33,454 nucleotides of DNA from the NCBI GenBank assembly GCA_027076905.1, contig JALTGP010000102.1, positions 1-33,454 on the forward strand, given 5' to 3'. The DNA comes from Campylobacteraceae bacterium. GTDB taxonomy: Bacteria > Campylobacterota > Campylobacteria > Campylobacterales > Sulfurovaceae. The notes beneath the pieces are model-generated. The model was given only the letters and a program-made list of their open reading frames with translations, was not told the origin of the DNA and ran no database searches. Within the stretch, counting starts at the first letter, position 1, and every line of letters starts with the position of its first letter. Of this stretch, positions 13,952 to 15,536 are shown one piece after another. The translations under genes were made by a program, and so were the position numbers.

Positions 13952-14446
13952 ATGAAAAAAATTCTAATTATAAGTACAGGTGGAACATTTAGCAAAGTTT
14001 ACAACCTACTAAATGGAGAGCTTGAGGTTGATACTACAAATCAAGCTCTAAAGAGTTTGGCAAAGCATTGGATGGTTAATTTTACTATTGTCAATATAAT
14101 AGGAAAAGATAGCCTTTATATGACTGATGATGATAGATTTATTATCGCTCAAATGGTTAAAGAGAGTGAGGTAGAGCGTATTATCATTATTCATGGAACT
14201 GATACCATAGACAGAACAGCTCAATATCTAGCAGAGTGTCATTTGAATAAAAAAATTATCTTAACAGGGAGTATGGTTCCTTTTTCTATCAATCCAATAG
14301 AGGCAACAGCAAATTTTAGTTCAGCCTATGGATATATTTCTATTGTTGATAAAAATGGTGTCTATATTGGTATTAATGGAAAAATAGGTTCATTTAAAAA
14401 AATAAGGAAAAATAGGAAAAAAGGATTTTTTGAAGTTAAAGAATAA
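13952..14446 (+). CDS. Asparaginase-like protein, N-terminal domain only
   Basis: ISTGGTFSK and IIHGTDTIDRTAQYL motifs; 164 aa with no C-terminal asparaginase domain. The 3' end lies inside the tandem duplication. Confidence 0.8.
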   Translation: MKKILIISTGGTFSKVYNLLNGELEVDTTNQALKSLAKHWMVNFTIVNIIGKDSLYMTDDDRFIIAQMVKESEVERIIIIHGTDTIDRTAQYLAECHLNKKIILTGSMVPFSINPIEATANFSSAYGYISIVDKNGVYIGINGKIGSFKKIRKNRKKGFFEVKE

Positions 14447-14591
14447 AAAAGTCCAACGATAAAGAGGTTTCTATTCTCTAGCGATTTAGAAATAGGGGGA
14501 TACTAAAGAGAAACATATATCGTTGTAATTGAATTATAACACAATAAAACTTTAATATAATTAAACATTGATATTTTTTTCTGTTTTTTTT
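14401..14591. repeat. Tandem duplication unit, copy 1 (about 191 bp)
   Basis: aataaggaaaaatagg...tttttt recurs from 14592 with high identity once the internal insertion is removed. Confidence 0.85.
14454..14526 (-). ncRNA. Candidate structured small RNA, copy 1
   Basis: CAACGAT (14454-14460) pairs with ATCGTTG (14519-14525) around a 58-nt core identical to copy 2. Minus-strand TATAAT at 14538-14533 would place the TSS near 14526; T6 on the minus strand follows the stem. Confidence 0.45.
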
Positions 14592-14630
14592 AATAAGGAA
14601 AAATAGGAGAAAAGGATTTTTTGAAGCTTA

Positions 14631-14790
14631 GGAATGCAAATTAAATAAGTACCAAATTTCAAAGGTAAATAAACGAATAGATTTAGCTATAGTTTGACGC
14701 AGGACTACTCCCCGTAATTCAAGGAAAATTAGAGTTAAAGATATTTGTTTAGTTGCCTTTGAAATTTGGTAGTTATTTAATTTGTATTCC
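14631..14790. mobile_element. MITE-like non-autonomous element with ~45-bp terminal inverted repeats
   Basis: GGAATGCAAATTAAATAAGTACCAAATTTCAAAGGTAAATAAAC at the left end matches the reverse complement of the right end with 4 mismatches. TTA on both sides (CTTAG if the ends are drawn one or two bases inward). It interrupts duplication copy 2. Confidence 0.75.
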
Positions 14791-14807
14791 TTAGTAGTAA
14801 AGAGGCA

Positions 14808-14880
14808 CAACAACAAAGAGGTTTCTATTCTCTAGCGATTTAGAAATAGGGGGATACTAAAGAGAAACATATGTTGTTGT
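14808..14880 (-). ncRNA. Candidate structured small RNA, copy 2
   Basis: CAACAAC (14808-14814) pairs with GTTGTTG (14873-14879), with two compensatory pair changes relative to copy 1. Minus-strand TATAAT at 14892-14887 at the same spacing. Confidence 0.45.
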
Positions 14881-14953
14881 AAATGAATTATAACAGAATA
14901 AAACTTTAATACAATTAAACATTGATGTTTTTTTATATTTTTTTTGAAATTTT

Positions 14954-15029: not shown

Positions 15030-15536
15030 ATGAAATCTTTAAAGGCTATATTGATAATTACGGGTATTACTCTGCTTATTATTACGATTTTTGTCTCTTT
15101 GGCAGACAGACAGCATATGGTAACACTAAAAACAGACAATTTAGAGAAAAAACCTTTGCCTATTGTGTTGCATCACTATCAAGACAGTGATTGTGGTATG
15201 GTTATTGACAGCTTGGAGTATGCATCACAAATAATTGCTCCTAATGGAAATACATGGTTTTTTCATGACCACGGTGGTATGGTCTCTTGGTTAAACCGAA
15301 AATCGTTTAAAAACGAAGCGATTCTATGGGTCTATGCTAAAGACAGTAAAAAGTGGATAGATGCCAAAAAGGCATATTACAGTCGTGATGAAGAGACCCC
15401 TATGCACTATGGTTTTGGAGCATATGAGCATCAAAAAGAGAATCTAATAGATTTTAAAACGATGGAACTCCATATGCTACGAGGGGAACATATGGCAAAC
15501 CCAACAATTAGAAAACAGCTACTAAAAGGGGCGTAA
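15030..15536 (+). CDS. NosL-like membrane-anchored copper-binding protein
   Basis: DCGMVIDSLEYASQI, FFHDHGGMVSWL and WIDAKKAYY motifs resembling NosL; N-terminal TM. Confidence 0.7.
   Translation: MKSLKAILIITGITLLIITIFVSLADRQHMVTLKTDNLEKKPLPIVLHHYQDSDCGMVIDSLEYASQIIAPNGNTWFFHDHGGMVSWLNRKSFKNEAILWVYAKDSKKWIDAKKAYYSRDEETPMHYGFGAYEHQKENLIDFKTMELHMLRGEHMANPTIRKQLLKGA

Follow-up and report, generated by a model that had tools for sequence, protein, structure and literature searches.

Comparative sequence analysis points to a new structured small RNA family in Sulfurovum, present in one genome as two minus-strand copies beside an asparaginase-domain gene

The window analysed here is a stretch of 33,454 nt from a Campylobacteraceae bacterium of the genus Sulfurovum. 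Between an asparaginase-domain gene and a second, downstream ORF it carries two copies of a small structured element, together with the features that surround them:

13952-14446, plus strand: gene for a 164-aa asparaginase N-terminal-domain protein, convergent neighbour of the RNA (PF00710, E=2.9e-20; synteny)
14401-14591: first unit of a ~191-nt tandem duplication, taking in the asparaginase ORF end, the predicted sRNA gene and the sRNA promoter (repeat families D1 and D3)
14454-14525, minus strand: predicted sRNA copy 1 (match to model R1 of 83.5 bits; covariation; fold z-scores)
14518-14525 paired with 14454-14461, minus strand: closing stem P1 of copy 1, followed by the inner hairpin P2 and a small variable P3 region
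14482-14502, minus strand: apical loop of copy 1, C-rich (UAUCCCCCUAUUUCUAAAUCG) and nearly invariant across short forms (alignments A2/A5)
14533-14538, minus strand: -10 box of copy 1, TATAAT (extended TGTTATAAT), 7 nt upstream of the stem and conserved in homologous loci
14550-14555, minus strand: TTAAAG, -35-like element of copy 1, resembling the C. jejuni consensus TTTAAGTnTT (PMC3824568)
14592-14945: second duplication unit, split by a hairpin insertion element (repeat analysis)
14631-14790: MITE-like hairpin element of ~160 bp with TTA on either side, between the two sRNA copies
14808-14879, minus strand: predicted sRNA copy 2, with the architecture of copy 1 and the stem CAACAACA/TGTTGTTG (match to model R1 of 84.8 bits)
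14836-14856, minus strand: C-rich apical loop of copy 2, identical to that of copy 1
14887-14892, minus strand: -10 box of copy 2, TATAAT, likewise 7 nt upstream of its stem
14904-14909, minus strand: TTAAAG, -35-like element of copy 2 (promoter comparison)

A first-pass annotation of this DNA had placed two copies of the element at these positions, sharing an identical 58-nt core and differing in their closing stems by two compensatory base pairs, and all of this was confirmed. The identical core has no chance expectation in shuffled sequence. The annotation had also taken 72 nt as the length of the duplicated element. That element is indeed present twice, but the true repeat is longer, spanning 148 nt at 91% identity (14444-14591 and 14798-14945), and it forms part of the tandem duplication of about 191 nt, which takes in the end of the upstream ORF; this end is copied ahead of the repeat in each unit (14401-14449 and 14592-14640). 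Since the duplication is recent, the identical core is partly its product, and it is the stem changes that are informative. The arrangement is most simply explained if the RNA gene and its promoter were first duplicated in tandem and the MITE-like element then entered the second unit.

The inserted hairpin has a folding energy of -79.5 kcal/mol. Near-identical copies of it, 24 in all, were reported in the window's own genome and a few in genome G003, and none was found in the other 32 genomes of the genus at E<=1e-5. A tandem arrangement of the RNA also occurs in G029 (L054 1501-1577), where a second sRNA copy lies straight behind the first with no promoter in between. The P1 of this second copy is largely different (CAATGGTATAC/GTATACCATTG) yet still complementary, and the copy is an independent tandem duplication.

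Covariance models for the short form of the RNA (R1) and for a longer relative (R2) were run on the 34 available genomes of the genus Sulfurovum. Homologues, which thus extend beyond the window's locus, were found in 29 of these, and five show neither form. A weak match in G016 was set aside, as it had neither promoter nor synteny. A DNA search of 60 relatives gave clear copies in the same genus only. Similarly, other genera yielded no true homologue when R2 was run over 299 genomes of the order and R1 over 175 of the family, under stricter filters that very divergent relatives could escape. The few matches outside the genus (G317, G407 and G418) had neither a promoter nor a matching C-rich loop and were judged to be chance. 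Named public records with the loop sequence belong to Sulfurovum sp. or related Campylobacterota MAGs, and viral contigs gave no match to two exact patterns.

The short form, which is the window's type, measures 75-87 nt and occurs in 11 genomes. The long form, of 131-141 nt, occurs in 18 genomes of sister species; it has extra inner hairpins, and P1, P2 and the C-rich single-stranded motif are all retained. This motif is the most conserved part of the RNA, though it is unpaired. In short forms the loop UAUCCCCCUAUUUCUAAAUCG is nearly invariant, and long forms keep CUCUCCCCUAUUUCCUGAAUUAGUAU almost unchanged. The two share the core CCCCUAUUUC, on both sides of which their sequences differ. In a tree of two neighbouring proteins, short and long forms are interleaved (L059-L076, L033-L043), and the window's species groups with the long-form G021, G032 and G033 at 96% support. 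The interleaving suggests that the RNA and its upstream flank have passed together between species, but with some 440 residues the tree is too small to decide the matter.

The fold is best defined on the minus strand, which gives a z-score of about -4.6 as against -2.6 for the plus strand. Here the conserved inner helix P2 is CUCUUUAG/CUAGAG, which closes the C-rich loop; the inner hairpin CTATT..AATAG put forward in the first-pass annotation is not the conserved helix. In long forms 13 of 30 pairs have changed on both sides, and the covariation score was reached in none of 500 shuffles. Eight held-out sequences fit the long-form model, mainly apart from the outermost P1 pairs. In short forms P1 and P2 hold standard pairs in 99.2% of cells, and seven pairs have changed at both positions; further pair types are no more numerous than in shuffles, so that the short-form case rests on the other measures. 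Covariation is seen in P1, P2 and P4. Selection on structure, which the two stem changes in the window had been taken to suggest, is thus upheld by stems that covary among the homologues, held-out sequences included. Furthermore, G-U pairs outnumber A-C pairs by 70 to 6 in long forms and by 8 to 0 in short forms (78 versus 6 overall). A G-U pair reads as an A-C mismatch on the opposite strand, so this asymmetry indicates that selection acts on the minus-strand RNA. A plus-strand reading was considered and ruled out by the folding z-scores and the G-U asymmetry.

The promoter points to the same strand. As first annotated, a minus-strand TATAAT stands exactly 7 nt ahead of each stem, and copy 1 is followed by six T residues. 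In all 30 loci compared the first P1 pair follows the -10 box (TATAAT in 29, TACAAT in one) after exactly 7 nt, and in nearly all of them a TTTAAG/TTAAAG element is found farther upstream. The sigma70 promoter of C. jejuni has been described as TATAAT together with TTTAAGTnTT (PMC3824568). Because the -10 box precedes the first base pair by 7 nt, the 5' end of the RNA would fall at the closing helix, near 14525 for copy 1. A minus-strand transcript starting at this helix had been proposed, and it is now predicted from a sigma70-type promoter whose spacing is the same in all 30 loci. A strong intrinsic terminator directly after P1 is absent in most species.

The proposal that the element represents an undescribed small RNA family thus draws support from homologues, covarying stems, a conserved minus-strand promoter and the lack of an Rfam match. 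No Rfam 15 family matched the window at gathering scores, and none matched the element at E<=1 in 20 homologous loci. Likewise, the papers found on Sulfurovum sRNAs describe no such RNA in title or abstract. On this comparative evidence we consider it nearly certain that the element is a real structured RNA gene on the minus strand. Judged from sequence, the family is new but belongs to a known kind of RNA, and its structure is strongly supported.

The position of the RNA is fixed on one side. Wherever the flank is available, the RNA is convergent to the 3' end of the asparaginase-domain gene at a distance of a few to a few tens of nt (in G028 the contig ends before this flank), and wherever the flank reaches farther, fabI lies beyond the asparaginase gene on the RNA's strand. 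The other flank varies, with trpB in most of the long-form genomes examined and the g15030-DsbD-NosL operon in most short-form genomes.

Several further observations concern these neighbours. In the window a 168-aa ORF with no Pfam match (15030-15536) opens an apparent operon that also holds genes for a DsbD-like protein, NosL and an FtsX-type permease; most short-form RNA genes have this ORF as a neighbour, and it was not found next to long forms. The short protein consisting of the asparaginase N-terminal domain only adjoins fabI across most family genomes examined. The intergenic region between the asparaginase gene and fabI holds hairpin-forming insertions of about 90-280 bp in G007, G010 and G024 (L063, L068 and L041).

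Near-universal retention, a fixed position and a nearly invariant loop imply a steady function. On the comparative evidence each copy is a predicted small non-coding RNA gene on the minus strand with a sigma70-type promoter just upstream. The RNA folds into the closing helix P1, the inner helix P2, which displays the C-rich loop with its CCCCUAUUUC core, and the small variable arm P3. In the mechanism that we propose, the exposed C-rich motif would be the functional surface; it may base-pair with G-rich mRNA sites, most likely near ribosome-binding sites, and such pairing would repress translation without Hfq. Small RNAs with C/U-rich loops that act on G-rich ribosome-binding sites are established in Campylobacterota, the examples being CJnc190 and RepG (PMC8687705). 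Hfq (PF17209) was found in none of the 34 genus genomes, while control genomes were positive.

No conserved target beyond the RNA's own locus emerged when the 34 genomes were searched, with a strict 10-nt seed, for GAAATAGGGG ahead of ATG; the sites outside that locus were coding or isolated only. Hybrid prediction between the RNA and the start regions of neighbouring genes gave no consistent pairing. By analogy with the known RNAs, we give roughly even chances to a stand-alone regulatory RNA that uses its C-rich loop to pair with G-rich sites in mRNAs without Hfq. A broader version is more tentative and probably overreaches: a genus-wide riboregulator with two alternative forms at a conserved gene pair, which passes from species to species at the same site along with its upstream flank and uses its nearly invariant C-rich loop to control a regulon of mRNAs with G-rich sites in the Hfq-free Sulfurovum.

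The fixed neighbour raises the question of whether the RNA instead controls the asparaginase gene in cis, by reading past P1 into its 3' end, stopping at a hairpin there and altering the stability or expression of the convergent mRNA. The RNA adjoins this 3' end in homologous loci while its other flank changes. Additionally, among the genomes without the RNA, the asparaginase match is absent in G004, G006, G008 and G016 and is cut by a contig end in G012; joint loss of both genes may, however, reflect a single deletion. Long forms carry a further hairpin, P5, which spans the asparaginase stop codon and covaries, and its G-U to A-C count of 20 to 2 favours the RNA strand, so that an overlapping transcript, antisense in part, is conceivable. 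Yet the window and G020 have no P5, the C-rich loop falls outside the overlap although it is the most conserved part, and other genera keep the asparaginase-fabI pair without the RNA. We therefore regard antisense control as unlikely, if still worth weighing. Transcription from the RNA antisense through the asparaginase gene into fabI, in the manner of an excludon, would make the element a structured fabI leader. The constant orientation of fabI fits this, but a conserved promoter of the TCGTGATAAAATACG type stands immediately in front of fabI in nearly all genomes, and fabI thus has no need of the RNA as a leader; the retention of the gene pair in RNA-less genera also makes such a leader improbable.

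The conserved loop might alternatively be a protein site, in an RNA that binds or sequesters a protein (6S-like or titrating, for example). The long form is rod-like with large internal loops and an invariant single-stranded motif of ~25 nt in 18 genomes, and the seed search that yielded no conserved mRNA target would fit such a role. Against a 6S-like RNA, the RF00013 model found no match at E<=1 in the window's own genome, nor did any RNA family at that threshold, a negative weakened by the poor conservation of 6S sequence in this group (PMC3656092); the 77-nt short form moreover lacks a central bubble of the 6S type. A protein-binding role thus seems rather unlikely. A hairpin beside a stop codon, present in two copies of which the second adjoins a MITE, could also be a feature of the DNA or the mRNA end, such as a bidirectional terminator, an attC-like recombination site or a mobile repeat. 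The G-U asymmetry, the promoter at fixed spacing, the single fixed genomic position per genome and the lack of a plus-strand U-run render this highly improbable. An attC/integron site was considered on account of the CAAC/GTTG ends and ruled out, given that the element has a promoter, shows the G-U asymmetry and sits at a single fixed locus. Finally, the first-pass annotation had noted an identical 12-codon ORF in both copies and raised a type I toxin-like peptide. The ORF, encoding MFLFSIPLFLNR, is intact in both window copies, but its start codon is missing in most short-form homologues (G002, G015, G017, G018, G024, G028 and G029, for instance), and long forms have no equivalent. Sequence comparison thus already refutes MFLFSIPLFLNR as a conserved function, and the chance that the locus is a type I toxin-antitoxin peptide gene is close to negligible.

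The stand-alone regulatory RNA proposed here would come from a genus with almost no described sRNAs, and the family is uncatalogued. The covariance model and the sharp promoter prediction make the RNA easily testable in any Sulfurovum transcriptome.

Among known RNAs of Campylobacterota, the type I toxin-antitoxin RNAs of the AapA/IsoA type are also small structured transcripts, sometimes present in several copies. The Sulfurovum RNA differs from these in having no conserved peptide ORF and no recognised antisense partner. 6S RNA (RF00013) resembles only the long form, in its long helix with internal loops and its own promoter; the Sulfurovum RNA differs in having no RF00013 match in its own genome, a length of 75-141 nt, an invariant C-rich loop and a short form with no central bubble. 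The closest likeness in description is to RepG of Helicobacter pylori and CJnc190 of Campylobacter jejuni, which are also Campylobacterota small RNAs with an exposed C/U-rich loop in an Hfq-free host, and RepG is likewise a stand-alone gene (PMC8687705). The Sulfurovum RNA differs from both in its locus, fixed beside the asparaginase gene, and in its short and long forms. It would resemble RepG and CJnc190 in kind, as a likeness of description.
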